38,486 nt of DNA. Origin: a virus. The notes beneath the pieces are model-generated. The model did not search any database and was not told the origin of the DNA. It saw only the letters and a list, made by a program, of their open reading frames with translations. Position numbers and translations under genes: made by a program. The stretch's first letter is position 1, and every line of letters starts with the position of its first letter. The stretch lies in IMG/VR virus record IMGVR_UViG_3300017776_000048, positions 1 through 38,486 of that record; one strand, given 5' to 3'. This document shows, one piece after another, positions 10,344 to 34,679 of this stretch.

Positions 10344-10956
10344 CTTAATATGGTGGTTCTTTCTATCCTCCTGTATTATATCAGCAGGATATCACCGTTA
10401 CTTTGCACACAATACTTTTAAAGCACCAGTCTGGTATGAATACCTTGTACTAATATTAGGACCACTTTCTGGTGCTGGTAATATTTTGGGTTGGGCAGGC
10501 GTGCATCGTTTGCATCATAACTATTCAGACACAAGGCATGATCCGCATTCACCACACTTTACTCCGGTCTGGCAAGTAATTACATCTACATTCAAAGTGC
10601 CGCCAATTAAACGAATGCACTTAAAAGATTTAATGCGTAATAAAAGAATTATGTGGTTCTATAAGAATCATCATTACGTTTGGTACACTTATTTCTTTAT
10701 GCTTGCATTCATACCATTTACCTGGTGGGTTGTATTCTTTATTACTCCAATGATATATGGTTATATAGGATATGGCTTTTTGAATTGGTGGTGTCATTCA
10801 GGTGAAGAAGTAAAGAATAGTGCGCTTGCTAATATACTTACTGGTGGTGAAGGTTGGCATATGAATCACCACAAGAGACCACATAGTTGGCGTATCGGTT
10901 TAGAATGGTGGCAATGGGATCCAGCAGCATGGTTTATAGTATTAATCAAAAAGTAA
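10324..10956 (+). CDS. Fatty-acid desaturase-like membrane protein
   Basis: 210 residues with the three histidine boxes of integral-membrane diiron desaturases: HRYFAH (24-29), HRLHH (61-65) and HMNHH (179-183), plus NWWCH (154-158). Hydrophobic segments lie at about 3-21, 41-59, 118-137 and 135-152. It is shorter than typical acyl-CoA/acyl-lipid delta-9 desaturases (about 300) but complete in motifs. It would introduce a double bond into a lipid acyl chain using O2 and ferredoxin or cytochrome b5-type electrons from the host. Could remodel the host membrane or act on the island's own product. Confidence 0.9.
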   Translation: MTYFIVSLIWWFFLSSCIISAGYHRYFAHNTFKAPVWYEYLVLILGPLSGAGNILGWAGVHRLHHNYSDTRHDPHSPHFTPVWQVITSTFKVPPIKRMHLKDLMRNKRIMWFYKNHHYVWYTYFFMLAFIPFTWWVVFFITPMIYGYIGYGFLNWWCHSGEEVKNSALANILTGGEGWHMNHHKRPHSWRIGLEWWQWDPAAWFIVLIKK

Positions 10957-11522
10957 TTACTCTTGAAGAATATGGCTTTGTAAAGTTTCAAGAAGAATTA
11001 CGACGATTAGGTGAAAGCACAAACCCAGGAGATAAACGTAATCTTGACTGGTTTGAAGAATTACCTTTTACCTTTATGTTTTACGAAGAATGGTTCTTTC
11101 TCTTTGACGGAGATAAGCCTGTGGCATTCGCTGCCGTTCAGGACTTCGGTGATAATCAATATAGGTTACTTACAAGAACATACATCTACAGAGACTACCG
11201 TCGCATATTCAATCCAAAGAAAGATCACTTTGAAAGTCCTACAATGCGGATATTACCTTATCAGCTAGAGCATGTTGGTAATTATAAATCCGCATTTGTA
11301 TCAATGCAATCGCTTTCTCGCAGACCAGCTATTGAAAGGTTTGCTTATAAAATGAAATACAGAACCGGCAAAGACTGGACTCTTGCACCAAATATGATGC
11401 TAACAACTGAACAAGACTGGGGTAAGGATTGTTGGCAGAGTATTATATATAATGGTGAGCGCCCTAATTTACCAGAAATGACTATTGAAGAATGGAAAGC
11501 CAAATGGCAGAAAAGTGTTTAA
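10929..11522 (+). CDS. GNAT-like acyltransferase (tentative)
   Basis: 197 residues from ATG 10929; an upstream in-frame ATG at 10887 exists, but it would deepen the overlap with the desaturase gene. The segment WFFLFDGDKPVAFAAVQDFG followed by YRLLTRTYIYRDYRRI resembles strands 2-4 of the GNAT fold, where the last strand precedes the acetyl-CoA loop; the loop itself is not canonical. The C-terminal half is rich in aromatic residues. No other family suggests itself. It ends inside the next gene (19-base overlap). Confidence 0.7.
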   Translation: MVYSINQKVITLEEYGFVKFQEELRRLGESTNPGDKRNLDWFEELPFTFMFYEEWFFLFDGDKPVAFAAVQDFGDNQYRLLTRTYIYRDYRRIFNPKKDHFESPTMRILPYQLEHVGNYKSAFVSMQSLSRRPAIERFAYKMKYRTGKDWTLAPNMMLTTEQDWGKDCWQSIIYNGERPNLPEMTIEEWKAKWQKSV

Positions 11523-14420: not shown

Positions 14421-14454
14421 TCAAATTAAATGAAAATAACTGTTTACAACTGTT
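14421..14454 (+). repeat. Promoter repeat, copy 1
   Basis: A 34-base segment including an A/T-rich upstream element and the -35 box (TCAAATTAAATGAAAATAA then cTGTTTACAACTGTT) recurs at 34599-34632 with one mismatch (C/G at 14440). The two copies are 20 kb apart and both are promoters. Confidence 0.85.
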
Positions 14455-14471
14455 TGAACACATGCTATAAT
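14443..14471 (+). promoter_or_regulatory. Sigma70-type promoter with UP-like element
   Basis: TTTACA (14443-14448), 17-nt spacer, TATAAT (14466-14471) with extended -10 TGC. The A/T-rich upstream region is duplicated at the promoter of 34680. Drives the DUF932 gene. Confidence 0.9.
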
Positions 14472-14502
14472 TAATGCATGAAACAAACTAAGGAGAGAAT
14501 AT

Positions 14503-15453
14503 ATGTCTCATGAAGTTGAAACAATGGCTTACGCGGATGCGCTTCCGTGGCATGGTCTTGGTGTAAAAGTACACAACGATTTGTCACCGCAGCAAATGAT
14601 GCAAAAAGCTGGTGTGGACTGGAAAGTTCACGAGGTTGAATCATTCGTTGAATTCAACGGCACTAAAATGCCAACAGGTCAGAAATCACTTATTCGTGAA
14701 ACTGACGGTAAAATCCTTACAAACGTTGGTGAGAACTGGCATCCTTGTCAGAACGAAACCGCATTTGAATTCTTTCAAGACTATGTAGCAGCAGGTGACA
14801 TGGAAATGCACACAGCTGGTTCATTGAAAGGTGGACAATACGTATGGGCTTTGGCCAAAGTTAAAGAGTCATTTGACCTCTTTGGTGGCGATCAAGTTGA
14901 TTCGTATATGTTGTTTTCAAATCCACATGTGTATGGCAAATCAATTGATGTGCGTTTTACACCAATTCGTGTTGTTTGTAACAATACACTTACTTTTGCA
15001 TTAAACGGTGAAGTTAACCGTGCTGTAAAAATCAATCACAAATCAGAGTTCAATACTGATATGGTGAAAGATCAACTTGGCATTGCACACGAAAAGTTTG
15101 CAAAGTACAAAGAAATGGCTGAATTTCTTGGTAGCCGACCATTCTCTGTTGAGAATATGTTGAACTACTATAACGAAGTATTTCCTCTTACTTCTGGTTC
15201 AAACGAAGATGAAGTTGTTTATGAAACTTTGTCAGGTCAAGCAAAAAACTGTGTTGACAATCTTCAAACCCAGCCTGGTGCAGAATATGCCGAAGGTTCT
15301 TGGTGGCAAGTATTCAATGCGGCTACTTATGTGACTGATCACATTCATGGTCGTAATGCTGACAACCGTTTGCATAGCCAATGGTATGGTCAAAACCAGC
15401 TTCGCAAAATTAAAGCAGCTGAAAAAGCGGTTGAATACGCTAACGCTGCTTAA
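14503..15453 (+). CDS. DUF932 protein (TIGR03299-type)
   Basis: 316 residues; strong RBS AAGGAGAG. Matches the phage/plasmid DUF932 family by its opening (MSHEVETMAYADALPWHGLG), by QKSLIRETDGKILTNVGENW, and by FTPIRVVCNNTLTFAL. Members are widespread in phages and plasmids, about 300-400 residues, without a settled function. The gene is expressed alone from a strong promoter with its own leader, as expected for an abundant early protein. The tail (KIKAAEKAVEYANAA) is helical. No enzyme motif is visible. Confidence 0.9.
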   Translation: MSHEVETMAYADALPWHGLGVKVHNDLSPQQMMQKAGVDWKVHEVESFVEFNGTKMPTGQKSLIRETDGKILTNVGENWHPCQNETAFEFFQDYVAAGDMEMHTAGSLKGGQYVWALAKVKESFDLFGGDQVDSYMLFSNPHVYGKSIDVRFTPIRVVCNNTLTFALNGEVNRAVKINHKSEFNTDMVKDQLGIAHEKFAKYKEMAEFLGSRPFSVENMLNYYNEVFPLTSGSNEDEVVYETLSGQAKNCVDNLQTQPGAEYAEGSWWQVFNAATYVTDHIHGRNADNRLHSQWYGQNQLRKIKAAEKAVEYANAA

Positions 15454-16773: not shown

Positions 16774-16803
16774 GGCTGAGCGTAAAACCTCAGCCATTTT
16801 TTT
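16774..16803 (+). terminator. Rho-independent terminator
   Basis: GGCTGAG (16774-16780) pairs with CTCAGCC (16789-16795), 8-nt loop, then A and seven or more Ts. It ends the tRNA transcript; its T-run continues into TATATAAATAG. Confidence 0.88.
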
Positions 16804-16804
16804 A

Positions 16805-16813
16805 TATAAATAG
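16805..16813 (+). promoter_or_regulatory. T4-type late promoter TATAAATAG
   Basis: Same TTTTTTTATATAAATAG string as at 707-723, again straight after a terminator. It is 29 bases upstream of the first gene of the large virion-type operon 16842-25083. Confidence 0.78.
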
Positions 16814-16841: not shown

Positions 16842-17855
16842 ATGTTACGATTTATTACATATTTGCGGGAGGCGAAACAAATGAAGAACCCGTTTAATCC
16901 ATTAAAAATCTCAGACTTGCGCAAAGACGAAAATCGAGTGCTTACTTTTATTAAGAAAGTAGAACAGGGTGAACCATTTATAACTGTTAAAAGAGGGGAT
17001 TTTATTATTCCTAGAAAGTTTGCTGACGAAGTTAAATCGTTTATGACTGCAGGTGAAAAAGGTAGGTTTCCTGTTAAAGGTTCATCTATGATGGTTGCAG
17101 GATTAAAGATTCCAGGTGACTTTCTTAAGACCGGCGAATTTGGTGGACGAGGACAAGGGTCTGGCACTAATGCCGAAGTTCAGGCAATGAATTACTTTAA
17201 TGATAATTTGAATAAGATTTTAAAACGAGAAAAAGTACCGTATATTACATTAAAGATTAATGGTCGTAAAGTAGAATGCATGACAATGGTGCAAAGTACA
17301 GGCAAATATAAAGGTGCCGAACCTAAATCAGATTTTTCAATCCTTGATCATAAAATGAATCCGGTTGCGTTTATATCACATAAAGCTGGCACATCAGCTA
17401 AAAGCTATCAACAATATGGTGGTGTATCAAAGCAAGCATTGCCAAGCAAATATGAAAACCATCGTGAGATTAAAAAATTTATGCAAGATGTTAAAAAGCT
17501 ACAACCAAAAGGTCTTGAACCTGGACAAAGCTTTTATAGAAGTATAAAAGATAACAACTTAATTGGCCTAATGAAGTACGGTCCGGAATATGGATCAGGG
17601 ACCAGTATACATAATGTTGATGAATTTCATTTAGGCAATATGAATTTAATTGGTCGAGGACAAGGACCTTACACAATTAAAGCAGTTGAAAGTGGCACAA
17701 ACGGCAAAATGCCAAAGGGTCAATCAGAAGCAGTGTTATTCATTCGATATCAAGCACGGCGAGGAGATGCAAGAGCAGCAGGTGAAGTTGTTCCAAATGC
17801 ACGAGTCGGTGTTTTCCCCTTGGCTAAAACCTCACGAACTTCAAAGAGAGTATAA
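16842..17855 (+). CDS. Virion-type protein, possible PD-(D/E)XK nuclease
   Basis: 337 residues from ATG 16842; a longer in-frame start at 16761 would overlap the terminator and promoter and is rejected. The N-terminus MLRFITYLREAKQ has the pattern of a T4 capsid-targeting sequence (MKTYQEFIAEA in IPIII), including an (L/I)XE-A site for the prohead protease. The central region has a Glu (NAEVQAM, Glu112), PKSDFSIL (Asp164) and VAFISHKAG (Lys181) separated as in PD-(D/E)XK nucleases, with Ser in place of the acidic residue before xK. GGRGQGS and later GRGQGP are glycine-rich loops. First gene of a late operon; TAATG junction to the next gene. Confidence 0.78.
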   Translation: MLRFITYLREAKQMKNPFNPLKISDLRKDENRVLTFIKKVEQGEPFITVKRGDFIIPRKFADEVKSFMTAGEKGRFPVKGSSMMVAGLKIPGDFLKTGEFGGRGQGSGTNAEVQAMNYFNDNLNKILKREKVPYITLKINGRKVECMTMVQSTGKYKGAEPKSDFSILDHKMNPVAFISHKAGTSAKSYQQYGGVSKQALPSKYENHREIKKFMQDVKKLQPKGLEPGQSFYRSIKDNNLIGLMKYGPEYGSGTSIHNVDEFHLGNMNLIGRGQGPYTIKAVESGTNGKMPKGQSEAVLFIRYQARRGDARAAGEVVPNARVGVFPLAKTSRTSKRV

Positions 17856-18139
17856 TGATATTACAAGTAACTGATAATGCAAAAGAGTATCTTAAAAAAG
17901 TAGGTAAGCCAAATGTATCACTTGCGGTAAAAGGCGGCGGCTGTTCCGGGTTTCAATACGAATGGGGAACAACAGATAAAAAAGCTACGATTGAAAACTT
18001 ATGGTTAGATCCCATGGCAGAGATGTTTGTTTTTGGTTGTACAGTTGATTATGTCGAAGAGCTTGGGGGATCATACCTTAAAGTGTTAAATCCAAACGCA
18101 GTCGCACAATGCGGATGCGGAGAAAGTTTCGGAGTTTAG
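17855..18139 (+). CDS. IscA/HesB-type Fe-S carrier protein
   Basis: 94 residues. A-type carrier signature: GGGCSGFQYEW (Cys30) and QCGCGESF (Cys86, Cys88), the three conserved metal/cluster-binding cysteines. Length is slightly short of the bacterial 105-110. It would receive and pass on [2Fe-2S]/[4Fe-4S] clusters. Possible clients nearby are the two radical SAM proteins and the Cys-rich proteins at 19370 and 21443. Odd place: it sits in a late, virion-type operon and has no capsid-targeting-like N-terminus. Confidence 0.93.
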   Translation: MILQVTDNAKEYLKKVGKPNVSLAVKGGGCSGFQYEWGTTDKKATIENLWLDPMAEMFVFGCTVDYVEELGGSYLKVLNPNAVAQCGCGESFGV

Positions 18140-18140
18140 A

Positions 18141-19370
18141 ATGGAACAATTTAATTCATTTATAACAGAACAAAAGAATTTACATATGACACACATCGAA
18201 GATAAAGTTATCTACGGTGGAGTAAATGGCACACGCCAAGCAATTAATGCATTACGTGAGTTAAGAAATATGTTAAAAGGAGAACACGATGGATCTGTAT
18301 CTGTTAAATGGGATGGTGCTCCTGCTATTTTTGCTGGCATCGACCCTAGTGACGGAAAGTTTTTTGTTGCCAAAAAAGGTATCTTTAACAAGAACCCGAA
18401 GGTTTATAAGACTGACGCAGATGTTGATGCTGACACTAGCGGCGATTTGGCTACTAAGTTAAAGCAAGCATTGCAATATCTTCCTGCGCTTGGCATTAAG
18501 AATGTAATTCAGGGTGACTTTTTATATGGCCCTGGAGATCTAAAAACGAAAAAGATTAAAGGAGAAAGATATCTTACATTTCATCCGAATACTATTATGT
18601 ACGCTGTCCCCGCAGGCACGCCAGCTGCGAAAGATATCGCATCAGCGAAATTGGGGATTGTCTGGCACACATCCTACTCAGGATCCACCTTCGAATCAAT
18701 GAAGGGCACATTTGGTGTAGATGTATCAAAGCTTAAGAAATCAAAAGCAGTATGGTCACAAGACGCGATGCTTCGTGACTTAACTAAATATACAATGACA
18801 GGAAAAGAAACCGATGAAGTTAACAGATATCTTTCGGATGCGGGGAAAATATTCAATAAAATCTCAGGATCCACATTGCGACAGTTGGAATCAAATCAAC
18901 AGCTGGCCCAGCATATCGAAACTTACAATAACACATACGTACGAGCAGGAACAGTTATTACAAATACAAAACGACATGTATCCGGTCTTATTAAATGGAT
19001 TGCAACAAAGTATAAAAAAGAAATAGACAAGCGCAAAACCGATAAAGGTAAAGCTGCTCAACAGAAAAAGCTCGATGATTTATTAGCCTTTTTCTCACAA
19101 AAGAATCAAAATAGTTTAAAATTAATGTTCGATTTGCAGAAATATATCGTTTTAGCCAAATTAAAACTTATAAATATATTAAATAAATTAAGTAATATTA
19201 ATACCTTTGTAAAGACTCGTACAGGTTATAAGACTACTGGTCCAGAAGGTTATGTAGCAATTGACAAACTTGGTGGTGACGCGGTGAAGATCGTTGATCG
19301 TATGGAATTTTCATACAACAACTTCTCGCCAGATATATTAAAGGGATGGGATAAACCGGGAAAGAACTAA
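18141..19370 (+). CDS. Virion-type protein with nucleotidyltransferase/ligase motifs
   Basis: 409 residues; begins MEQFNSFITEQKN (capsid-targeting-like, ITE site). The sequence has the order of covalent nucleotidyltransferase motifs: SVKWDGAPAIFAG (K56-x-D-G, motif I), FFVAKKG (74-80, motif III-like), NVIQGDFLYG (121-130, IIIa-like), then after a helical insertion of about 190 residues GPEGYVAI (367-374, motif IV EGxV) and AVKIVDR (381-387, motif V-like). This suggests an RNA/DNA-ligase or capping-like fold, with a large helical insert (KKEIDKRKTDKGKAAQQKK). I believe it belongs to a conserved T4-type marine family (possibly DUF6267) without known activity; unverified. Activity is inferred from motifs only. 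Confidence 0.8.
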   Translation: MEQFNSFITEQKNLHMTHIEDKVIYGGVNGTRQAINALRELRNMLKGEHDGSVSVKWDGAPAIFAGIDPSDGKFFVAKKGIFNKNPKVYKTDADVDADTSGDLATKLKQALQYLPALGIKNVIQGDFLYGPGDLKTKKIKGERYLTFHPNTIMYAVPAGTPAAKDIASAKLGIVWHTSYSGSTFESMKGTFGVDVSKLKKSKAVWSQDAMLRDLTKYTMTGKETDEVNRYLSDAGKIFNKISGSTLRQLESNQQLAQHIETYNNTYVRAGTVITNTKRHVSGLIKWIATKYKKEIDKRKTDKGKAAQQKKLDDLLAFFSQKNQNSLKLMFDLQKYIVLAKLKLINILNKLSNINTFVKTRTGYKTTGPEGYVAIDKLGGDAVKIVDRMEFSYNNFSPDILKGWDKPGKN

Positions 19371-19921
19371 TGGCAGAACAACTTAGCTTTAAGCATTTTT
19401 ATACAGTTGAATATCGTCCAGGTGAGGACGAACAGATTAATTACAGAGCATACAAGCGACGTAGGCACATGTACGAGGGCGAAAGCGCTGAGTGTGAATG
19501 TGTTGATTGCAATTGCGATCCATGTGAGTGTAGCGATTGGCGTGCGGACATGGGTCCAGCCGGCGGTGGTTATTCTACAAGTGATGCAGAATCTCTTGGT
19601 GAAAAGCTTTCAATTTCATCAAGACTAAAACTTTCCAGATCAATTCGAAGAAACAAAGCAAAGATTGCAATGGGCCGCAAACGTGCTGCTCGACGCTTTG
19701 CAAGTAAAGACGTTTTAGATAGGCGTGCTCGTAAGGCCGCTTATAAAATGTTCTATAATAAAATTACAAAAGGTATTCCAAAAGATAAACTCAGCCCACA
19801 GCGTAAACAATCCATTGAAGATCGTTTGAAGAAGCCCGCATTCCAGGGCCGCATAAATAAAATTAGCCGCAAATTGGTGAAAGACGTTCGTAAAAAAGAA
19901 ATGGCAAGAAAGCGCGCATAA
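19370..19921 (+). CDS. Virion-type basic protein with Cys-rich segment
   Basis: 183 residues. N-terminus MAEQLSFKHFYTVEY is a weaker version of the capsid-targeting pattern. Residues 42-54 hold six Cys as CECVDCNCDPCEC, a possible Zn or Fe-S site. From about 80 on the protein is extremely basic and helical (LKLSRSIRRNKAKIAMGRKRAARR ... RRARKAAYKMFYNK), as expected for a DNA-binding internal virion protein. TAATG junction at the start and 1-base abutment at the end. Function unknown. Confidence 0.78.
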   Translation: MAEQLSFKHFYTVEYRPGEDEQINYRAYKRRRHMYEGESAECECVDCNCDPCECSDWRADMGPAGGGYSTSDAESLGEKLSISSRLKLSRSIRRNKAKIAMGRKRAARRFASKDVLDRRARKAAYKMFYNKITKGIPKDKLSPQRKQSIEDRLKKPAFQGRINKISRKLVKDVRKKEMARKRA

Positions 19922-21222
19922 TGAGTATATCGTTTAAGCAATATTTAGTTGAAGAAGAGAAGACTGTATTCTTTTCGTTTGGGCGTATGAATCCGCCTAC
20001 TATTGGTCATGGCAAATTGCTTGATGCAATGGCAAAGGCAGCAGGTAGAAATCCTTATCGTATGTACCTGTCTCAATCAGCCGAACCAAAAAAGAATCCT
20101 CTTTCATATAAAGAAAAGATTAAAACTGTTCGTAAGATGTTTCCACGTCATGCTCGTAACGTTTTAATGGCCGCAAAGATAAAAAATGTATTTCAAGTAG
20201 TTCAACAACTATATGACGATGGCTTCCGTAAGATTATTATGGTTGTAGGCTCAGATCGTATTCGTGAATTTAATGCATTGATTAAAAAATACAATGGTAA
20301 AAAAGGAACACATGGTTTTTATAATTTTAGCGATATTAAAGTAATATCAGCAGGAGATCGTGATCCAGATGCTGAAGGAGCTAGTGGCATGTCTGCATCT
20401 AAAATGCGTGCAGCAGCTTCAAGCAATGACTTTACAGCATTCTCACAAGGATTGCCAAAACAATTCTCAAATGCAGAAGCAAAGAAACTATTTAATAATG
20501 TACGCAAAGGCATGGGCCTAAAAGAAGCAATTGAGTTTCATAAGCACATACAGCTTGCTCCTGTATCTGAAACTCGTGAAGCATTTATTGATGGCAACCT
20601 TTTCAATGTTGGTGATGAAGTTGCTATTAAAGAATCAGGTCAGCTTGGTATTGTGACTCGATTAGGATCTAACTATGTTATTATTGAATCAGACAATAAA
20701 CAATATCGTAAATGGCTAGAGGCTGTTGAAAAGATTGAAGAAGCCTGTTGGGATTCACATAAACAAGTTGGCACTAAAAAAGGCAAAGACGGTAAGCAAG
20801 TACCAAACTGTGTACCAAAAGAAGAATATAAAGATCCTGCAGTTCTTGGTGATTACGGAACTCCTAAATCTGTTAAAAAAATGAAAGCAATAACTCCAGG
20901 TCAATCAGAAAACAAAAACTATTTTAAAGGTTTGAAAAAAGGTACAGCTGATAAACGTGCCGCACACTTTAATAAAAATGCTAAGAAGTCAGATAACGAT
21001 GCATCTGCTTATAAACCAGCTCCTGGTGATGCAACCGGGAAAACTAAACCCTCGAAGTATACAAAATCATTTAAAGCAATGTTTGATGAAAATGATGCTG
21101 TTGATATGGCTAAAGCCAGAATCGATAGAGAGAAAACCCGAGATGATAGAAAGCACGATCGCATGTTAGATCGGGCAAGATTAAGAGACACATTTAAAAA
21201 GAATCGGACAACGAAAAGATGA
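19921..21222 (+). CDS. Virion-type cytidylyltransferase-like protein
   Basis: 433 residues. N-terminus MSISFKQYLVEEEK fits the capsid-targeting pattern with an LVE site. Residues 15-200 form a nucleotidylyltransferase domain: GRMNPPTIGH (21-30, (H/T)xGH), IIMVVGSDR (105-113) and SGMSASKMRAA (155-165, in place of ISSTxIR). Such domains adenylylate or cytidylylate small substrates (NMN, pantetheine phosphate, glycerol phosphate). The remaining 230 residues are a low-complexity, lysine-rich tail, with an SH3-like patch (GNLFNVGDEVAIKESGQLGIV) and a CWDSHKQVGTKKGKDGKQVPNC Cys pair region. Substrate unknown. Confidence 0.85.
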   Translation: MSISFKQYLVEEEKTVFFSFGRMNPPTIGHGKLLDAMAKAAGRNPYRMYLSQSAEPKKNPLSYKEKIKTVRKMFPRHARNVLMAAKIKNVFQVVQQLYDDGFRKIIMVVGSDRIREFNALIKKYNGKKGTHGFYNFSDIKVISAGDRDPDAEGASGMSASKMRAAASSNDFTAFSQGLPKQFSNAEAKKLFNNVRKGMGLKEAIEFHKHIQLAPVSETREAFIDGNLFNVGDEVAIKESGQLGIVTRLGSNYVIIESDNKQYRKWLEAVEKIEEACWDSHKQVGTKKGKDGKQVPNCVPKEEYKDPAVLGDYGTPKSVKKMKAITPGQSENKNYFKGLKKGTADKRAAHFNKNAKKSDNDASAYKPAPGDATGKTKPSKYTKSFKAMFDENDAVDMAKARIDREKTRDDRKHDRMLDRARLRDTFKKNRTTKR

Positions 21223-21446
21223 TTAAGTTTTCAACATATATTAATGAAGGGGCATTGGCTGATAAGGCTAAAAAATCCGGTATATCTGTTGGCACACTTC
21301 GAAAAGTTTATAATCGAGGTATGGCCGCATGGAAGACTGGTCACCGTCCTGGAACAACACCGCAGCAATGGGGTTATGCAAGAGTTAATGCATTTATAGT
21401 AAAAAAGAAAAAAGGTGGGTTGAACCACGATAAGGATCTAGCATGA
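21219..21446 (+). CDS. Small virion-type protein with capsid-targeting-like start
   Basis: 75 residues. MIKFSTYINEGALADKA fits the capsid-targeting pattern (INE-G site). The body SGISVGTLRKVYNRGMAAWK plus HRPGTTPQQWGYARVNAF is a compact conserved-looking domain that I recall from other phage proteins (possibly DUF5824), function unknown. Overlaps both neighbours by ATGA. Confidence 0.75.
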   Translation: MIKFSTYINEGALADKAKKSGISVGTLRKVYNRGMAAWKTGHRPGTTPQQWGYARVNAFIVKKKKGGLNHDKDLA

Positions 21447-23320
21447 AGAATTTTAAAACCCTCCGCGAAGGAAAAGCCCCAGTAACAGAAATGCATTGCA
21501 AAGATTGCGGTTGTGAACGAGGCAATATTAATCCAGATTGCGATTGTCCTAATGATGGAAGCGCTCCAATAACAGCAAGTCATTGGAAAGAGCAAGCAAA
21601 TGAAAGCATTAATAAAATGAGGCTAATCAATATAATGAAGAAAGCCTCTCCTGCTGCAAAGAAAGCTTTAGAAGCACCATCACGTGTTGATAATAAAGAT
21701 GATAAAAAAGTTAATGAGCTAACTATTGCTGATGTAAACAAAGCAACCGAAAAAGCAAAGAAGCGCCAAGCAAAAGAAAGAGAAACTACTGGAAAGAGTA
21801 GTGTATCTAGTACAGATCTTGCGGCTCGGATGCCTCGTAAAGAAAACGTTCGGTCTGCTGATAAGAAAGCCGAAACATATAGAAAACCAGATGGTAAAAT
21901 GGGTACTCGAATGGTACCAATGGATAAAACTGTTATGACATCTGAGCTTAACAAATCAACTCTTGGTTCATATGTAAAGAAAGCTACGGATCAGCTTGAA
22001 AAAGGTAAAGTAAAGAACGTAAACAAAATAGGTAACAGAGCTGTTGGTATTGATACAGCTACTGATAAAATGCGTAAACGTAAACAATTACCAAAAGTTA
22101 CTAACACTATTAAAGCAGGTAAAGACCAAGAGGTTGAAACTCAAACACAAGAATCAAACCTTAATGAGCTTTCGCCAAAAACAATGGGAAGATATGTTGG
22201 AGCAGCATCTACTTCTTTAAAAACTGCTGCACAGAAAAGCGGTTCTGGAAGCTATGCAACACAAGCAGCAAGGAAAGATCGATATAAAGATCTTAAGACT
22301 GCTACTAAAAGAAAACAAGGCATTGACATGGCTGCTAAGAAATTGAGTAAAGAGTCTGTGAACGAAGCAAGTAAAGAAGGCGCTATTAAAATTATCAAAA
22401 ATAAAGATAATATGGCTCAAGTGCAACGTATGACTAAAGGAAAGTTTGTAAACCACGGTAAACCCTACAAGTCAGCAAAAGATGCAGAAAAGGTTAGAAG
22501 CAGTGGACAACATTCTATGCAGTTTTCACATACCGAAGGTGCTATGAAACGTATGGCTTCTGGCGATGGTATGGCTACATTCAAGAAGAAACCACCAGAG
22601 AAAGAAGAAGCATTCGACGCTAGAGCAATTATGAAAAAAGCAAAAGCGCAAGGCGCCAAACCCGATCAAACAAGCGGAATATTAAGGAGAAATAGTCCTG
22701 CACATAAAGCTGCTGTCAAAAAACACATTGCCAGAATGAAGAGCAATAGACCAGCAAGTAGACCAACAACAGAAGAAACAAAACTAAATGAACTTGCACC
22801 ATTAGTTGCTCTAGGCGCAAGAATGGCTGCAAGTGCCGCTGTGAAAAAAGCAGTCTCCCCACCGCCTCCACCACCTCAGCAAAAAGAAGTGGCAATGGGT
22901 AGAGTAAAAAAGAAACCGTTAGCACCTATTCCTGCTTTAAAAAAAGCAAATATAAAACACACTCATAATCAATCATCGTTTAAAAAGAATAAAACAATGG
23001 TTGGAGTGTCAGATAAAGATTATAATAAAGCAAAAAAAATAGTAGGTAATATGCCTAATGTTATGCTCCATACAGAAATGTCTGATATGGAAAAAACACG
23101 TGCTATGGCAACAAGCGCTGGTCTTAAAACTAAAACAGCTGATCAAAAGAAAAGAGAACGCGACCAGCAAAAGAAGAATGCTGCTAATAGACCAAATCCT
23201 GAAATGTTAGGTGCCGGTAAAACCTTTGATGCAATACGTAATACCGCTAAGAAAGCTGGTAAAGCAGCAGTAGTAGGTGCAGTTGCTGGTGCAGCAGCTT
23301 CTAAAGTAGCAGGGTTCTAA
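21443..23320 (+). CDS. Large basic virion-type protein with repeated modules
   Basis: 625 residues. MKNFKTLREGKAPVTEM fits the capsid-targeting pattern (LRE-G). Residues 19-35 have five Cys (MHCKDCGCERGN ... DCDCP), a likely metal site. Most of the rest is lysine-rich low complexity. Two copies of an LSxKTxGxYV module occur (LNKSTLGSYVKKA near 169 and LSPKTMGRYVGAA near 243) with a downstream basic partner (GIDTATDKM, GIDMAAKKLS). A PPPPPP linker lies near 475. The C-terminus is Ala/Gly-rich and helical (KAAVVGAVAGAAASKVAGF), perhaps membrane-active. It looks like an internal head protein that binds DNA. The longest gene of the operon. Confidence 0.78.
   Translation: MKNFKTLREGKAPVTEMHCKDCGCERGNINPDCDCPNDGSAPITASHWKEQANESINKMRLINIMKKASPAAKKALEAPSRVDNKDDKKVNELTIADVNKATEKAKKRQAKERETTGKSSVSSTDLAARMPRKENVRSADKKAETYRKPDGKMGTRMVPMDKTVMTSELNKSTLGSYVKKATDQLEKGKVKNVNKIGNRAVGIDTATDKMRKRKQLPKVTNTIKAGKDQEVETQTQESNLNELSPKTMGRYVGAASTSLKTAAQKSGSGSYATQAARKDRYKDLKTATKRKQGIDMAAKKLSKESVNEASKEGAIKIIKNKDNMAQVQRMTKGKFVNHGKPYKSAKDAEKVRSSGQHSMQFSHTEGAMKRMASGDGMATFKKKPPEKEEAFDARAIMKKAKAQGAKPDQTSGILRRNSPAHKAAVKKHIARMKSNRPASRPTTEETKLNELAPLVALGARMAASAAVKKAVSPPPPPPQQKEVAMGRVKKKPLAPIPALKKANIKHTHNQSSFKKNKTMVGVSDKDYNKAKKIVGNMPNVMLHTEMSDMEKTRAMATSAGLKTKTADQKKRERDQQKKNAANRPNPEMLGAGKTFDAIRNTAKKAGKAAVVGAVAGAAASKVAGF
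21947..22073 (+). repeat. LSKKTxGSYxKKA module, copy 1
   Basis: Encodes LNKSTLGSYVKKATDQLEKG followed by GNRAVGIDTATDKM. A protein-level repeat, one of three in the late operon. Confidence 0.7.
22169..22349 (+). repeat. LSKKTxGSYxKKA module, copy 2
   Basis: Encodes LSPKTMGRYVGAASTSLKTA and, after a basic stretch, RKQGIDMAAKKLS. Same protein as copy 1. Confidence 0.72.
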
Positions 23321-23321
23321 A

Positions 23322-23555
23322 ATGCAATCATTTAGAATATTCAGCGAAAAGAAAAGCGAAACCTGGGAACAGGGTTACGAGCGCAGGGTTGTAAAAACAA
23401 CTGATCCAGAACATAAAGATGATGGATACAACTGGCGTATTAAAGGTAAAGAGCGAGATAATATTTCTATTAAATTATATAAAGAAAAACCATCAAAGAA
23501 AGAATTTGACAACCAGATGCGTAGAGTTGCTGGTCACGAGTTCGGGAGTCAATAA
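23322..23555 (+). CDS. Small virion-type basic protein
   Basis: 77 residues. MQSFRIFSEKKSE resembles the capsid-targeting start (FSE, not a perfect (L/I)XE). The rest is charged, with YNWRIKGKERDNISIKLYKEK and a C-terminal FDNQMRRVAGHEFG. ATG lies directly after the previous stop. No family recognised. Confidence 0.68.
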   Translation: MQSFRIFSEKKSETWEQGYERRVVKTTDPEHKDDGYNWRIKGKERDNISIKLYKEKPSKKEFDNQMRRVAGHEFGSQ

Positions 23556-24010
23556 TGGAATCGTTTAAAGAATATAAAGACCTCAATGCCATGACGCTAA
23601 GTAAAGCGATGGTAAGCAAGTCAGGTATTAATCCTGTAATTAAAAAAGACATGCCTAAGCTAAAAACTGATTTGGCTGCTTTACGTGCTCGCTTAGATGG
23701 AAAAAAACCAGATGAGAAAGTACAAAAAGAAGAGAAGGATTCCCGTCTTGCGAAAGCAGGTGTATCAGGGTTTAATAAAGCAAAGAAGACACCAGGCCAT
23801 AAAACTAAGTCGCATATTGTTGTGGCTAAGCAAGGTGATAAGGTTAAAACTATTCGCTTTGGTCAGCAAGGTGTTAAGGGTGCAGGAAGTGCACCTAAAT
23901 CAGATAAAGATAAAGCGCGTAAGAAAAGTTATTACGCACGTCATAACGCACAAGACTCCTCGCCGGATAAAATGTCTGCTCGTTACTGGTCACACAAAGT
24001 TAAGTGGTAA
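23555..24010 (+). CDS. Virion-type basic protein, DUF5872-like C-terminus
   Basis: 151 residues. MESFKEYKDLNAM resembles the capsid-targeting start but lacks the (L/I)XE cleavage site. The last 85 residues contain KVKTIRFGQQGVKGAG, KARKKSYYARHN and MSARYWSHKVKW, which I recall as a conserved phage domain (possibly DUF5872). Strongly basic. The motif RKSYYARH...YWSHKVKW has the look of a nucleic-acid-binding element. Function unknown. Confidence 0.75.
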   Translation: MESFKEYKDLNAMTLSKAMVSKSGINPVIKKDMPKLKTDLAALRARLDGKKPDEKVQKEEKDSRLAKAGVSGFNKAKKTPGHKTKSHIVVAKQGDKVKTIRFGQQGVKGAGSAPKSDKDKARKKSYYARHNAQDSSPDKMSARYWSHKVKW

Positions 24011-24020
24011 GGACATAAAT

Positions 24021-24293
24021 ATGCCTGATACCGCTCGCCTAAATAGAATTGAAGAGAAGATTGACAAAATGTCAGAAGCCATTATTCAAATGGCGCGCAT
24101 GGAGGCAAAGATCGATAATTATGAAAAATACAGAGATGAATCATGGAAACGTATGAATCGTTTCTCAGAGAAACTCGATCAGATTGAAAAGAAAGTAGAT
24201 GATAACCATAGAACAGTATCGACCATAAATCGATTGTTCTGGGTAGTATTAATAGCATCGGCCGGTGCTATCGCAACAAACTTATGGATGTAA
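24021..24293 (+). CDS. Coiled-coil protein with C-terminal membrane anchor
   Basis: 90 residues; RBS AAGGA 7 bases before ATG 24021. Residues 1-68 are a helical coiled coil (RIEEKIDKMSEAIIQMARME), then one transmembrane helix (LFWVVLIASAGAIATNLW) at the very C-terminus. This design is common among small phage membrane proteins (holin-like or spanin-related), but no family can be assigned. No capsid-targeting-like start, unlike its neighbours. Confidence 0.73.
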   Translation: MPDTARLNRIEEKIDKMSEAIIQMARMEAKIDNYEKYRDESWKRMNRFSEKLDQIEKKVDDNHRTVSTINRLFWVVLIASAGAIATNLWM

Positions 24294-24303
24294 GGAACAC
24301 CAA

Positions 24304-25083
24304 ATGAAAACCGAAGACATAAAAAATATGGCACTGGCTTGGGCGAAAGTACAAGAGGGTGCTGCAGAAGAAGCTGCTAAACCAGTAGAAGAAGGCAAAA
24401 TACCGCCTGCACTTCAAGCCTATATGGACAAAAAGAATGGCAAGAAATCCGATGATAAAGAGGATGACGGCGAAAAGAAAAAAGGTAAAATGGATGCTGT
24501 TGGTAAAGAAGACGGCGACATTGATAACGATGGCGACAAAGATGATACAGATTCATATTTGGCAAATCGTCGGAAAGCTATCAAAAAGAATATGAAGAAA
24601 GAATCAGTTGAAGTTGATGAAGCTGCAACCGCAACTCAGAAACCAAACAACGGTCAAGCAATGGACCAAGGTCTTTCTCCAAATGCTAAAAAAGAAATGG
24701 CTAACAAAACACCAATGCCTGACATGGTTGATGCACCTTCTGTTAATAAGAAATCCTTTGATGCAATGCGTAACTCTGGAAAGACTGCTCCAAAGCGTAG
24801 CGCAGACAATGCTGCCGGTGATAAAGCAATTAAACCATCTGCTACTCCAGTTAAAATGGAAGTTAAAACTGAAGAGACAGAAGTCAAAGAGCTTTCAAAA
24901 AAAACTATGGGTTCATATATAAAGAGAGCTACAAGTGATAACGCTGTTAATAATATGGCAAAAGGTATGGCCATCACAACTAATGATAAAAAAATGGGTG
25001 ACCAGGCGACAAAATTAGCTAGAAAAAGAAAAGCTGGAATTGCAACAGCGGCAGATAAACTATCAGCTAGCTACAAATACTAA
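24304..25083 (+). CDS. Virion-type acidic/basic protein with Ca-binding motif and repeat module
   Basis: 259 residues; RBS AAGGA. The N-terminus MKTEDIKNMALAWAKVQEGA may be a variant targeting sequence (VQE-G). KIPPALQAYMDKKNGKK is followed by EDGDIDNDGDKDDTDSYL, a calcium-binding loop of the DxDNDGDxD type, and a basic RRKAIKKNMKK. The C-terminus carries the third LSKKTMGSYIKRA module with RKRKAGIATAADKLS. Last gene of the late virion-type operon. Function unknown; a head-internal or scaffold-type protein is plausible. Confidence 0.75.
   Translation: MKTEDIKNMALAWAKVQEGAAEEAAKPVEEGKIPPALQAYMDKKNGKKSDDKEDDGEKKKGKMDAVGKEDGDIDNDGDKDDTDSYLANRRKAIKKNMKKESVEVDEAATATQKPNNGQAMDQGLSPNAKKEMANKTPMPDMVDAPSVNKKSFDAMRNSGKTAPKRSADNAAGDKAIKPSATPVKMEVKTEETEVKELSKKTMGSYIKRATSDNAVNNMAKGMAITTNDKKMGDQATKLARKRKAGIATAADKLSASYKY
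24892..25070 (+). repeat. LSKKTxGSYxKKA module, copy 3
   Basis: Encodes LSKKTMGSYIKRATSDNAVN and RKRKAGIATAADKLS, in a different protein from copies 1 and 2 but with the same order and spacing as copy 2. Confidence 0.72.
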
Positions 25084-25102
25084 CTGGAAAGTTATTACTT
25101 GA

Positions 25103-25468
25103 ATGGATAATGATTTACTAGAAGAAGATCTAGTAAAGTTTGCAGCGAAACATTACTACTCTCCAAAGGGTAGAATAGATCCTGAAGAATTTTATGATGA
25201 TTTGAAACGGTTTAGATATATTAAGCGTTTGGTTAATCGATACCTGGAAACAGGAAATCTATCTGAACGCTTAATTCTTAATCACCTCATTGTTATATTT
25301 AATGTATTAGGAAATTATGCTGCTCTTAGAATTATGGGTATGAAGCTTGAAGACGAACACTGGAAGGTAATCAAACCTTTCTTAAAATACTTATCGTATA
25401 TAAGGTCTGATCAATTGAAAGATGTTAAACCAGATCCAGAAGTTACAAAAAGATTAAAGAGGATATAA
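25103..25468 (+). CDS. Conserved T4-type hypothetical protein
   Basis: 121 residues, all-helical by pattern. The text LLEEDLVKFAAKHYYSP, DLKRFRYIKRLVNRY and LSERLILNHLIVIFNVLG I recall as a small protein conserved among T4-type marine phages, function unknown. Abuts 25468 (TAATG). The next gene is also of that group, so these two are part of a conserved core and not cargo. Confidence 0.75.
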   Translation: MDNDLLEEDLVKFAAKHYYSPKGRIDPEEFYDDLKRFRYIKRLVNRYLETGNLSERLILNHLIVIFNVLGNYAALRIMGMKLEDEHWKVIKPFLKYLSYIRSDQLKDVKPDPEVTKRLKRI

Positions 25469-26052
25469 TGGGAATTCTTAAAAGAGCAGGTGATCTACTT
25501 TATACGTTCAGATTTCTGACGCTATTAGTAACACCTTTTGATAAAACAAAAGCTTTTGAAGAAGGCATCATTGATGCAGACGGTAAGCGTATTAAGACAT
25601 ACAAAAAAGGTACTGAAGCGTATAAAGAATATTATACACCCTTCCACCGGCTGGTGTTTAATGTAAAACGACTTATGTCAAAGGTTCCTGGTGGCGGCAG
25701 TCGTCTTGCTTCATATGCAGCAGCACTTTATCTTATTAAAGAAAACTATTCAATTTCCGAAAAGAAACTATTAAAAGACTTACAAGAAGCAGGTATTGAT
25801 TCAACTGATTTACTTGCCGAAGAAAACAATTGGTTTGTACATGAGAATAATGATTTAGCTAAAGGTTTGTATAAACTAAAGTTTGAAAAAATTGCACATC
25901 CATTTGATATGCCGGTTATGCCTGGTGATAAAGTAAGAGTTGAAGAAGATATACAACCTTGCGGTGAAATGTTTGGTATCAATATATACGAAGCAAAACA
26001 CGTAAGATCAAATACAAAAGTATATGTAACATCAATGGAACTCCTGAGGTGA
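25468..26052 (+). CDS. Conserved T4-type hypothetical protein
   Basis: 194 residues. RFLTLLVTPFDKTKAFEEGI then FHRLVFNVKRLMSKVPGG form the conserved-looking N-terminal half. The C-terminal part has MPVMPGDKVRVEEDIQPCGEM and ends in a beta-rich TKVYVTSMELL. I recall homologues next to the preceding gene in other T4-type marine phages (not checked). The GTG start of the next gene overlaps its TGA stop. Function unknown. Confidence 0.75.
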   Translation: MGILKRAGDLLYTFRFLTLLVTPFDKTKAFEEGIIDADGKRIKTYKKGTEAYKEYYTPFHRLVFNVKRLMSKVPGGGSRLASYAAALYLIKENYSISEKKLLKDLQEAGIDSTDLLAEENNWFVHENNDLAKGLYKLKFEKIAHPFDMPVMPGDKVRVEEDIQPCGEMFGINIYEAKHVRSNTKVYVTSMELLR

Positions 26053-26801
26053 GACTTTATTTTAATGGGTGCTCGCATACTGTAGGAGTATGTTCTGGCA
26101 TGTATGATATAGAACAAACTTATCCTTCCAAACTATCACGCAAATTTAACGCTGCTTTTATTAATTCAGCTTCTCCTCGATCATCTAATGACAGAATACT
26201 TCGAACTACAGTAGAAGATATATGCTCTTTAGGTTATTCGCCAGACGTTGCAATTATTCAATGGAGTTATTACGATCGATTTGAAACTCCTTTAATGCTA
26301 AATGAATATGCTGAAAACGTTAAAGGCTGGAAAAATAATAGATTACGAGAACTTGAATGGAAACAGTATGGGCCGTGGATACAACTTTACCGTGGAGAAG
26401 AAAACGAAATATTCCACGAGTTTGTTGATAAGAACAAAACAAACGCAATTAACTCTTTCTTATCTAAAGTTATATTGCTCGACACATTTCTATTGTCTCA
26501 CAATATAAGACCGGTACATATGTTCTTTCCTGCAACAAAGATAATGAAGAACAACCCGATCATTCAATCTTTGCTAGCACAGTGTGATACTGATAACTTT
26601 TTTAATAGTCCGTTTTTAGGCGTAGAAAGTTGTTTAGATGAAAACGAATTTGCCCGAGGTGAGGATAATCATTTCTTAGAAGAAGCACATACATTTTTAG
26701 CGGATTCTCTTGAAAACTTTATATTAAATAACATTCCTTTACAGTTTAATAAACAAAATAATATAAATAGAGAAGAGCGCATGTATGTGTATCCGGGATG
26801 A
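26049..26801 (+). CDS. SGNH-hydrolase-like protein
   Basis: 250 residues from GTG 26049, which overlaps the previous stop as GTGA. Block I is LYFNGCSHTVG (Ser9), the Gly/Asn block is SASPRSSNDRI, the third strand VAIIQWSYYDRFE and the C-terminal DNHFLEEAH supplies Asp/His. Related in layout to the two proteins at 8662 and 9531, though divergent and in a late context. The late promoter for the next gene lies inside its 3' end. Substrate unknown. Confidence 0.77.
   Translation: MRLYFNGCSHTVGVCSGMYDIEQTYPSKLSRKFNAAFINSASPRSSNDRILRTTVEDICSLGYSPDVAIIQWSYYDRFETPLMLNEYAENVKGWKNNRLRELEWKQYGPWIQLYRGEENEIFHEFVDKNKTNAINSFLSKVILLDTFLLSHNIRPVHMFFPATKIMKNNPIIQSLLAQCDTDNFFNSPFLGVESCLDENEFARGEDNHFLEEAHTFLADSLENFILNNIPLQFNKQNNINREERMYVYPG
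26762..26770 (+). promoter_or_regulatory. T4-type late promoter TATAAATAG (intragenic)
   Basis: Perfect TATAAATAG inside the 3' end of the SGNH gene, 46 bases before ATG 26817. Would drive the P-loop kinase and the spanins. Confidence 0.65.
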
Positions 26802-26816
26802 ATAGGAGCTACTCAA

Positions 26817-27650
26817 ATGATTAACGAAGGCCGGAATGATCCGTCAATATTCAAAGCAGTCTTCTTGGCTGGTGGACCTGGCTCCGGTAAATCATTTATC
26901 GTAGGTAAAACATCACTCATTCCACTTGGATTTAAACTTGTAAACTCTGATCCTTTTTTTGAACGTGGTTTAAAGAAGGCTGGATTAACAATGGATCCGA
27001 AAGCAATTTATTCACCAAAAGGACAAGAGGTACGCACTAAAGCGAAAGTTGCTACAAAGAAACAACTATCAGGCTATATTGATGGTCGTCTTGGTTTAGT
27101 TATCGATGGTACAGGCAAAGACTTCAAAAAGATTAAAGCGCAGGCAGATCAATTGCTGCGACTTGGATATGATGTTGCTATGATCTTTGTTAATACAAAT
27201 GAAACTACTGCACTGAAAAGAAATCAAGACCGAGACCGCTCGCTTCCTGATAAGCAAGTATCAGCTATGTGGAAAGAAGTACAGAACAATTTAGGTATGT
27301 TCCAGGGGTATTTCCAGCCACAGTTTTTTGTTATAGATAATTCAGTAGGAAGTAATTACCAAAAACAATCTATGACTACATATAAAAGAATAATGACATG
27401 GGCAAAGAAACTACCAACAAATCAAAAAGTAAAAACATGGATGGCATCAACAGCACCAAGTGCTAAATTAAAAGAAGATGCACCAGCGGTAAATACTGGC
27501 TCTATTCCGAATCCTGCTGTTACTGCAATGGGACCGAGAAAGAAAAAGAAGAAAAATGGGTACGAAGCAATTCAAGTATCCGACCGAAGATATAAAGCTG
27601 GTAAGACTGTTTTATTGTCTCGGTTTAAAAGATATATGGCGGACAACTAA
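26817..27650 (+). CDS. P-loop kinase-like protein (zeta-toxin/PNK-like)
   Basis: 277 residues; RBS AGGAGCT. Begins MINEGRND, a minimal INE-G site like that of 21219. Walker A GGPGSGKSF (19-27), then LVNSDPFFERGL, a lid/substrate-type region with LVIDGTGKDF, DVAMIFVNTNETTALKRNQDRDRS (Arg-rich), as in zeta-toxin and polynucleotide-kinase-type P-loop proteins. The C-terminus is basic (KKKKKNGYEAIQVSDRRYK). Substrate could be a nucleotide, RNA end or UDP-sugar. Late promoter and position before lysis genes suggest a virion or lysis-time role. Confidence 0.82.
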   Translation: MINEGRNDPSIFKAVFLAGGPGSGKSFIVGKTSLIPLGFKLVNSDPFFERGLKKAGLTMDPKAIYSPKGQEVRTKAKVATKKQLSGYIDGRLGLVIDGTGKDFKKIKAQADQLLRLGYDVAMIFVNTNETTALKRNQDRDRSLPDKQVSAMWKEVQNNLGMFQGYFQPQFFVIDNSVGSNYQKQSMTTYKRIMTWAKKLPTNQKVKTWMASTAPSAKLKEDAPAVNTGSIPNPAVTAMGPRKKKKKNGYEAIQVSDRRYKAGKTVLLSRFKRYMADN

Positions 27651-28162
27651 TGGCTAAACTATATTTAATGTTCATCGTCCTGGGATTACTTGGCGGTGTG
27701 GGTTACGGCGCATATTCGTATTATATAACAACTCAGGCAACAATTGCTACATTAAGAACTAATAATGCAAAACTTGAAGTTGCACTTGAAACTGCTACAG
27801 AGAGCCTTGAAACTATGCAAGCAACTGTAGAGAAAACAAACAAACTAAATAAAGAACTCCAGAGTGATCTGCAAGCAGCGGAGGCTTATAGTGATGAACT
27901 ACGATCTAAATTTTCAAGATTGAATCTGGTTCAAGAAGCACTCAGAGACAGTGAGATATTGGAAGGAAAGATGAATGGAGCAACAGCAAATCTATGGCGT
28001 GAAATCATGGGGGAAAGCGGTAGTAGTGATGGTGCTAGCCGGCCTCTTCCTGGGTGGCTGCAGTCTAAGGGGGACGCCGGAAGCGGAGATCAAAGTAGTA
28101 ACGAAGATAGTTCCGACGACGATACCGACAGTAGCGCAGCCAAAACCGATACAGCTGAATGA
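27650..28162 (+). CDS. Inner-membrane spanin (Rz-like)
   Basis: 170 residues. N-terminal transmembrane helix (4-26, LYLMFIVLGLLGGVGYGAYSYY), then a coiled coil (about 35-110, LRTNNAKLEVALETATESLE ... LQSDLQAAEAYSDELR). The C-terminal third is low-complexity Ser/Asp/Gly-rich, as expected where another gene is overprinted. The overlapping downstream lipoprotein is the matching outer spanin, which makes the assignment. No endolysin or holin is seen next to it. Confidence 0.8.
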   Translation: MAKLYLMFIVLGLLGGVGYGAYSYYITTQATIATLRTNNAKLEVALETATESLETMQATVEKTNKLNKELQSDLQAAEAYSDELRSKFSRLNLVQEALRDSEILEGKMNGATANLWREIMGESGSSDGASRPLPGWLQSKGDAGSGDQSSNEDSSDDDTDSSAAKTDTAE

Positions 28163-28382
28163 CACCCGCGTATGGGTAGTTACTGCTGAAAAGTTAGATC
28201 AGTTCATTGCTGACTTTAAAGAGCAGTATGGCGAGGTAGCATTCGTTGCTCTGTCTATGCGTGACTATGAAAACCTAGCATTAAATATAGGTGATCTGAA
28301 ACGCTACATCAATCAACAAAAAGAAATCATAGTGTACTATGAAAAAGCTGTAACTGATGATAAAGTCACACCTGAAAAATAA
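27975..28382 (+). CDS. Outer-membrane spanin lipoprotein (Rz1-like)
   Basis: 135 residues in another frame of 27650-28162 (188-base overlap). The signal VVVMVLAGLFLGGC has a lipobox (LGGC, Cys29), so the mature protein starts CSLRGTPEAE and is lipid-anchored in the outer membrane. The periplasmic part is beta/helix mixed with a Pro-rich linker (VPTTIPTVAQPKPIQ). GGAAGGAAAG upstream of ATG 27975 can serve as RBS; GTG 27999 is a shorter alternative. It is larger than classical Rz1 (about 60). Together with the inner spanin it would fuse the membranes at lysis. Confidence 0.8.
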   Translation: MEQQQIYGVKSWGKAVVVMVLAGLFLGGCSLRGTPEAEIKVVTKIVPTTIPTVAQPKPIQLNDTRVWVVTAEKLDQFIADFKEQYGEVAFVALSMRDYENLALNIGDLKRYINQQKEIIVYYEKAVTDDKVTPEK

Positions 28383-34020: not shown

Positions 34021-34587
34021 ATGAATATATTTGTTCTTGATACTGATCCAGTAGAAGCTGCACAGCTCCAATGTGATAAACACGTTGTAAAGATGGTACT
34101 TGAGTCTGCACAAATGCTATCAACTGCACATCGTCTAATCGATGGCACTATGTATAAAGCACCATCTAAATCAGGTAAAACTATGGTTAAACACTGGAAG
34201 CATGACGATCCAGGTATGGAAAAGCTTTTATATAAAGCTGTACATATGGGTCATCCTTGTACCTTATGGTCTATGGAATCAGATGCTAACTACAATTGGC
34301 ATTACAAACACTTCATTGCATTATGTGATGAATACACGTATCGCTATGGTAAAACACATCTTACTGATACTAAGCTACGTGAAGCTCTTGAACTTACACC
34401 ATACAATATACACAAGGGCCCACAAACACCATTTCGTTTAGCTATGTCTGAATTCCCTGAATGCCACTTTCAAGATCCTGTTGTATCTTATCGTGCATTC
34501 TACCAAACAAAGCAAAAACGTTTCTCTATGGTATGGTCTAAACGTGATATTCCTTCATGGTTTAATAGTGATTTAAATGTCGCATAA
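34021..34587 (+). CDS. Conserved phage hypothetical protein
   Basis: 188 residues. CDKHVVKMVLESAQMLSTAHR, HMGHPCTLWSMESDANYNW and CDEYTYRYGKTHL are motifs I recall from a large family of phage proteins of unknown function. Conserved His, Lys and Trp residues in these blocks suggest an enzyme or nucleic-acid-binding fold. The GAGGGGGT stretch 11 bases upstream is the RBS. Stands alone behind its own promoter. Confidence 0.8.
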   Translation: MNIFVLDTDPVEAAQLQCDKHVVKMVLESAQMLSTAHRLIDGTMYKAPSKSGKTMVKHWKHDDPGMEKLLYKAVHMGHPCTLWSMESDANYNWHYKHFIALCDEYTYRYGKTHLTDTKLREALELTPYNIHKGPQTPFRLAMSEFPECHFQDPVVSYRAFYQTKQKRFSMVWSKRDIPSWFNSDLNVA

Positions 34588-34598
34588 GCAAACTATTT

Positions 34599-34649: not shown

Positions 34650-34679
34650 AATAATATAAAGTGAATAAAGGAGACAAAT

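Follow-up and report, generated by a model that had tools for sequence, protein, structure and literature searches.

The capsid-targeting sequence of bacteriophage T4 is known, and a review has suggested that T4-like phages load varied proteins with it (PMC9026906). In the T4 internal protein IPIII, mutations established that residues 4 and 7 of this N-terminal sequence govern targeting and that residues 8 and 10 govern processing, with a substitution at position 10 permitting targeting without processing (PMC9026906). Among cyanophages, published reports place a cytidylyltransferase in purified virions by mass spectrometry for S-SM1 (PMC3037559), S-SZBM1 (PMC9146016), and S-CREM2 (PMC10665884), NMNAT in virions of S-SCSM1, with S-CBWM1 cited alongside (PMC9602691), and a kinase in virions of S-CRM01 (cited in PMC10665884). 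Here, we analyze a virus record of 38,486 bases (IMG/VR record IMGVR_UViG_3300017776_000048; the whole record is the window, and positions are counted along it), in which an operon spanning 16842–27650 encodes enzyme-like proteins with N-termini that resemble the T4 sequence. We consider the operon to be a late-expressed cargo module in which a T4-type capsid-targeting system loads an enzyme payload, with a probability of roughly 0.82.

A leader motif shared by unrelated operon proteins

A first-pass annotation of the window had proposed capsid-targeting-like starts on nine proteins of the operon. All nine genes and their N-termini were confirmed, and the full motif, defined strictly as M-x(1-3)-F-x-x-[FYH]-[IL]-x-E, occurs in nuc, the DUF6267 protein, CTrans, and the DUF5824 protein. 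It is partial in g625, in which the start MKNFKTLREG is the motif minus one residue, in g77, and in the kinase. Two of the proposed leaders were rejected, namely those of g183 (MAEQLSFKHFYTVEY; 0/46 homologues match) and g151 (MESFKEYKDL; a weak fit with no usable homologues). The proteins with a complete or partial motif are the following, where the arrow marks the putative cut and pI is the isoelectric point.

16842..17855, + strand: nuclease-like protein (nuc, phrog_13937), 337 residues, pI 10, with invariant E112, D164, and K181
16842..16871, + strand: capsid-targeting-like leader of nuc, MLRFITYLRE↓A
18141..19370, + strand: DUF6267 protein, 409 residues, with a KWDG motif (PF19782, E=2.8e-103)
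18141..18170, + strand: capsid-targeting-like leader of the DUF6267 protein, MEQFNSFITE↓Q
19921..21222, + strand: CTrans, cytidylyltransferase / NMNAT-like protein, 433 residues (PF01467, phrog_395/3041)
19921..19953, + strand: capsid-targeting-like leader of CTrans, MSISFKQYLVE↓E
21219..21446, + strand: DUF5824 protein (PF19141), 75 residues, leader MIKFSTYINE↓G
21443..23320, + strand: g625, Lys/Arg-rich protein of 625 residues with the short-variant leader MKNFKTLRE↓G at its N-terminus; a similar protein occurs in C48C1
23322..23555, + strand: g77, 77 residues, leader MQSFRIFSE↓K, which is extended to the full motif in some homologues, such as MIKFKQFISEK
26817..27650, + strand: P-loop kinase, Zeta_toxin/AAA_33-like (PF06414, PF13671), start MINE↓G

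Conservation was assessed in about 150 related IMG/VR loci, and the counts refer to distinct N-termini. The motif is matched by 8/8 homologues of nuc, 75/83 of the DUF6267 protein, 60/67 of CTrans, and 42/72 of the DUF5824 protein; the control families from the same operon yield no matches (g121, 0/35; g194, 0/31; the IscA-like protein, 0/2). The first-pass annotation had recommended a comparison of homologue N-termini, and alignment on the glutamate shows that positions 4, 8, and 10 are almost invariant (entropy near 0) and that position 7 is F, Y, or H, while positions 5, 6, and usually 9 are variable. The conserved positions (4, 7, 8, and 10) are the same four identified in T4 IPIII. They are encoded by a mixture of synonymous codons, and the constraint therefore acts on the protein. 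The motif-bearing proteins of the window are all basic, with pI values of 9.4–10.4, a property also described for T4 internal proteins (PMC9026906), and the motif-free IscA-like and 250-residue proteins have values of 4.8 and 5.3.

The window genes match those of a Kyanoviridae-like phage of the T4 superfamily. A near-identity DNA search of phage records with the window gave no match. The nearest named relatives are C48C1 (67% identity in the DUF6267 protein), Stenotrophomonas phage DLP6, Methylophilales phage Melnitz, and Pelagibacter phage HTVC008M, and in relatives the same gene group is flanked on one side by the gp41 helicase or UvsX region and on the other by gp61 primase/nrdAB. Shuffling residues 2–16 of every gene produced about 0.2 strict matches per genome, compared with 3–7 observed in five of six relatives. 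Strict matches in these six relatives are concentrated at the locus, with 18/139 genes inside the 14–15 kb around it versus 3/1,230 elsewhere (Fisher p ~5e-16, the genomes being non-independent).

When relaxed and applied to the six reading frames of T4, the pattern recovered IPII, IPIII, Alt, gp24, and gp61.1, as well as MILIIILLNELL, which does not correspond to an annotated start. IPII, IPIII, Alt, and gp24 are substrates of the gp21 protease at their N-termini. The pattern is not fully sensitive, because T4 IPI was missed. The remaining protein, gp61.1 (MKTFKEFIKED), is uncharacterized and is encoded between T4 genes 61 and 41, which is where the marine phages have the cargo locus.

Motif-bearing proteins in virions of related phages

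The cytidylyltransferases detected in cyanophage virions begin with MKKFSAFLNEA (S-SM1), MRFRQFIIEA (S-SZBM1), and MKNFSSFLTEA (S-CREM2), and CTrans starts with MK[KNS]F[SN]AFLxEA at 80/80 S-SM1-type environmental loci. The kinase reported in S-CRM01 virions starts with MISFDQFLSEK and is encoded in the cargo locus. For S-CREM2, the 217 annotated proteins were translated and occurrence of the motif was compared with the 52 virion proteins. All four proteins with the strict motif (SAM hydrolase gp6, APH-like kinase gp14, gp136, and cytidylyltransferase gp154) are in the virion (Fisher p=0.003), as are 5/6 matches to a slightly wider pattern, and the virion protein gp12, annotated as Cas9, contains LRFASFMAEA from residue 17. 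The leader is absent from the DUF6267 protein in the cyanophages checked (S-PM2, S-SZBM1, S-SM1, and S-CRM01), and this leaderless protein is also missing from the S-SZBM1 virion list, which provides a small natural control.

Candidate cut sites and the prohead protease

Finding the prohead protease gene had been proposed as a check, and the outcome differs between the window and its relatives. A Pfam S77 search of the 38-kb window record gave no match, which is unsurprising for a fragment, whereas the S77 (gp21) protease is present in 9/11 relatives' records, including every record longer than 100 kb; both the protease and gp23 were found in relatives with sufficiently long records. The gp23 cut site of T4 (SFLTE↓A) aligns with GFLTE↓T in C48C1, AFLSE↓A in Melnitz, AFLGE↓I in HTVC008M, GLLTE↓A in S-CREM2, and ILTE↓A in S-SZBM1. 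On this alignment, the protease specificity appears to be kept in the relatives, with T or I seemingly tolerated after the cut. At the leaders, the residue after the cut (P1') varies: it is A in nuc of the window and in CTrans at all 80 S-SM1-type loci, G in the DUF5824 protein and the kinase of the window, but Q in the DUF6267 protein and E in CTrans of the window.

Sites of the same kind occur at domain boundaries. In all 17 distinct kinase homologues, hydrophobic-x-E-G stands directly before the kinase domain, and the part upstream of it varies from a full leader-like start (MYSFKEFKEQPQLDEG) or a minimal start to 147–233 residues of another protein. Fusions to the kinase have this site at the junction in 5/5 cases, against a background of 0.01. 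A cleavage site serving to release the kinase domain would have this appearance. The pattern [ILVM]xE[AGS] precedes the fused DUF5824 domain in 5/18 cases, which is suggestive against a background of 0.04, and the evidence for a similar site before fused g77 is weak (2/10). In Melnitz, the motif (MKTFAELQEG) travels with the kinase to another place in the genome (65855).

Proposed mechanism and alternative explanations

The central claim of the first-pass annotation, T4-like capsid targeting of enzyme-like proteins, is strongly supported by the comparative data and by the virion proteomics of relatives, except for g183 and g151 and with the kinase retaining the protease site only. In the mechanism that we propose, several unrelated basic enzymes would bear an IPIII-like capsid-targeting sequence of 10–11 residues, in which F4 and F/Y7 would anchor the protein to the scaffold core of the prohead. 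A gp21-type (S77) prohead protease would then cut at I/L8-x-E10, freeing the enzyme inside the head; DNA would be packaged around the cargo, and cargo and DNA would enter the next host cell, where the enzymes would act in the first minutes on host nucleotides, RNA, or defenses. The enzymes are very probably packaged in the head. Injection, given packaging, is likely, and trimming of the leaders is somewhat less secure but still probable. An early-action role of the cargo is likely because of the analogy with IPI, IPIII, and Alt and with the SAM hydrolase cargo of S-CREM2. We infer that the window phage packages like its relatives, with leaders cut and enzymes injected and acting early.

Several observations weigh against this interpretation. 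The mass spectrometry concerns cyanophage relatives, which lie outside the window phage and its closest clade, and the authors of the S-CREM2 report caution that virion proteomics alone cannot tell internal cargo from co-purified protein (PMC10665884). Several S-CREM2 virion proteins are without the motif, and two S-SZBM1 proteins with perfect leaders (S-SZBM1_191 and _192, 34311–35125; MKSFKSFLSES and MKTFKQYITEA) are absent from the published list of 30 virion proteins. HTVC008M has no strict match. The start of the window kinase (MINEG) comprises the cleavage-type site I-N-E↓G only, the targeting half being absent, and P1' is mostly Q in the DUF6267 family and E in CTrans, rather than A or G.

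The last of these points bears on the possibility that the proteins are packaged but that the leader serves targeting only and stays uncut in this clade. Trimming is plausible but unproven in the clade because Q, E, D, or N commonly occupies P1' instead of A or G, and the position-10 substitution in T4 IPIII illustrates that targeting can proceed without processing (PMC9026906). However, E10 is invariant in the motif-matching homologues, although targeting alone would not need it; the gp23 sites of relatives show T and I at P1'; and hydrophobic-x-E-G is kept at 17/17 kinase junctions. An uncut leader is on balance unlikely.

Alternatively, the proteins could be structural or scaffold-accessory components of the head that join the prohead core via the leader and have no role in the newly infected cell, with enzyme folds that are relics or structural. 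T4 IPIII affects head assembly (PMC9026906), and the locus also encodes motif-free virion proteins and mimics of the gp23 arm (see below), but the cargo draws on varied, interchangeable catalytic families (SAM hydrolase, APH-like kinase, cytidylyltransferase, P-loop kinase) and the leader resembles a tag that can be removed, hydrophobic-x-E sites being placed at domain boundaries; we regard a purely structural function as improbable. That the proteins are unpackaged, the shared N-terminus being a translation or expression signal or a leader copied between neighboring genes and the mass-spectrometry detections being contamination by abundant late proteins, is very improbable: recombination could indeed spread leaders among neighboring genes and contamination is raised by the S-CREM2 authors (PMC10665884), but it is the amino acids that are conserved, with synonymous codons in use, positions 4, 7, 8, and 10 are retained where the variable ones diverge, the motif follows the kinase elsewhere in Melnitz, and it associates with virion presence in S-CREM2.

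Enzyme assignments

The cargo had been described as comprising nuclease-like, ligase-like, nucleotidylyltransferase, and kinase proteins. The latter two assignments hold, with CTrans supported as a cytidylyltransferase by PF01467 and the kinase by its Zeta_toxin/AAA_33 profile matches. The ligase and nuclease names are unproven because neither model has a fold match in the PDB. For the DUF6267 protein, the KWDG motif is the sole basis of the name: there is no profile or fold match, a profile search of the PDB was empty, and the AlphaFold model (pLDDT 64) found no PDB fold match, although the absence of a match says little for a low-confidence model, which was limited by an alignment of close relatives only. 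For the first gene, the invariant residues E112, D164, and K181 are the sole basis; a test for a PD-(D/E)XK-type nuclease gave no Pfam or NCBIfam profile match, and the AlphaFold model (pLDDT 80) had no PDB fold match.

Operon organization and neighboring features

The other features of the operon are listed below.

16774..16795, + strand: intrinsic-terminator-like hairpin and T run (GGCTGAG-CGTAAAAC-CTCAGCC, then ATTTTTTT) at the end of the tRNA-Pro unit
16805..16812, + strand: T4-type late promoter octamer TATAAATA, directly 3' of the terminator hairpin and 29 nucleotides upstream of the first gene
17855..18139, + strand: A-type Fe-S carrier, IscA-like (PF01521, TIGR00049), no motif, pI 4.8; internal control
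19370..19921, + strand: g183, basic protein of 183 residues, N-terminus off motif
23555..24010, + strand: g151, basic protein of 151 residues (phrog_7595), weak motif
24304..25083, + strand: basic protein of 259 residues (phrog_38880), no motif
25103..25468, + strand: g121, small conserved protein (T4-GC198-like), no motif; control, with orthologues in S-SM1, S-CREM2, and S-SZBM1
25468..26052, + strand: g194, conserved protein, no motif; control
26049..26801, + strand: acidic protein of 250 residues, pI 5.3, no motif
26762..26769, + strand: second copy of TATAAATA, upstream of the kinase gene

The evidence on the proposed T4-type late promoter of the operon is mixed. The octamer upstream of the first gene is the most enriched of 56 octamers of the same composition upstream of genes in six relatives and T4, but its five copies in the window equal the chance expectation. 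The IscA-like gene, which lies in the cargo operon and has no leader, is rare among relatives (3 matches). The Lys-rich proteins at 21443–23320 and 24304–25083 share a repeated segment, seen by eye (NELSPKTMGRYV... and KELSKKTMGSYI..., respectively, then RKRKxGI...).

Leader-like starts were also noted in other settings. Record G001 has a second cluster of three adjacent genes (16992–18005; MKTFSEIREN, MKDFFKLREE, and MGAFKNFLKEA) away from the main locus, and a C48C1 protein with a g625-like start (MRTFKELRE↓A) adjoins the gp21 gene. In the prohead-core cluster of C48C1, a 65-residue protein (MRTFKELREAKD; 14434–14631) immediately precedes the S77 protease gene and takes the place that gp67/gp68 have in T4. 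S-SZBM1_191 and _192 are small proteins encoded between the terminase genes and adjoin virion protein 190. The major capsid gene of record G002 (110764–112079) appears to be broken into several frames with internal stops, possibly by an intron or sequence errors.

The gp41–gp61 interval additionally encodes small proteins that mimic the gp23 cleavage region, in T4 (gp61.1, 18966–19130), S-CREM2 (gp160, 10343–11236), S-CRM01 (121c, 3133–3327), and S-SM1 (S-SM1_197, 27806–28354). Against gp23, T4 gp61.1 scores 82 (shuffled maximum 48) and S-CREM2 gp160, a virion protein encoded just upstream of gp61, scores 95 (shuffled maximum 55); 121c scores 89 against S-CREM2 gp23, and the S-SM1 protein also scores high against cyanophage gp23. 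The annotation of S-SM1_197 as ‘major head protein’ may stem from such mimicry. A mimic at the locus of every phage was rejected, as the similarity is significant in T4 and S-CREM2 but not in Melnitz, HTVC008M, C48C1, G001, G002, or S-SZBM1.

Comparison with known systems

A search of the open literature, with subscription journals outside its scope, returned no description of such a leader in cyanophages or other marine phages. The new elements are the occurrence of the leader on a whole set of enzymes encoded at a single locus, its association with virion proteomics, the putative cut sites where domains are fused, and the connection to T4 gp61.1. The cyanophage puzzle of whether metabolic enzymes in purified virions are cargo or contamination thereby becomes a testable rule, and sequence offers a means of predicting injected proteins in a very abundant group of marine phages. 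The leader also suggests that a phage enzyme commonly catalogued as an auxiliary metabolic gene product, the cytidylyltransferase, arrives with the DNA and is not only made post-infection. We lean slightly toward a broader proposal, in which marine T4-like phages would share a general cargo code, consisting of a portable leader (F4, F/Y7, I/L8, E10) and internal (I/L)xE↓G cut sites. With this code, interchangeable enzymes (NMNAT-like transferases, SAM hydrolases, kinases, nucleases), encoded largely at one locus, would be loaded into the head, some as precursors that the prohead stage cuts apart, and would act as soon as infection begins; T4 gp61.1 would be a surviving trace of that locus.

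The ejection proteins of phiKZ and SPN3US are likewise protease-trimmed cargo injected with DNA, but these phages belong to another group and their S/A-X-E motif is unlike the window leader. T4 Alt, an ADP-ribosyltransferase, offers a precedent for a head-packaged, injected enzyme with an N-terminal gp21-type site (MELITELFDE); it is a single enzyme, with no sequence relation noted, whereas the window encodes a battery. The T4 internal proteins IPI, IPII, and IPIII (Mullaney and Black) share with the window the 10-residue leader (MKTYQEFIAE↓A in IPII and IPIII), the four key positions, basic cargo, and, going by the relatives of the window phage, an S77 protease in the genome, but they are small and have no known enzyme activity, in contrast to the large, enzyme-like proteins of many families encoded here in one operon in the gp41–gp61 interval. 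For the cyanophages S-SM1, S-SZBM1, S-CREM2, and S-CRM01, the available parts of the papers give virion presence (cytidylyltransferase/NMNAT, kinase, SAM hydrolase) and leave a targeting sequence unmentioned; their homologous cytidylyltransferase sits at the same genome position and carries the same leader.

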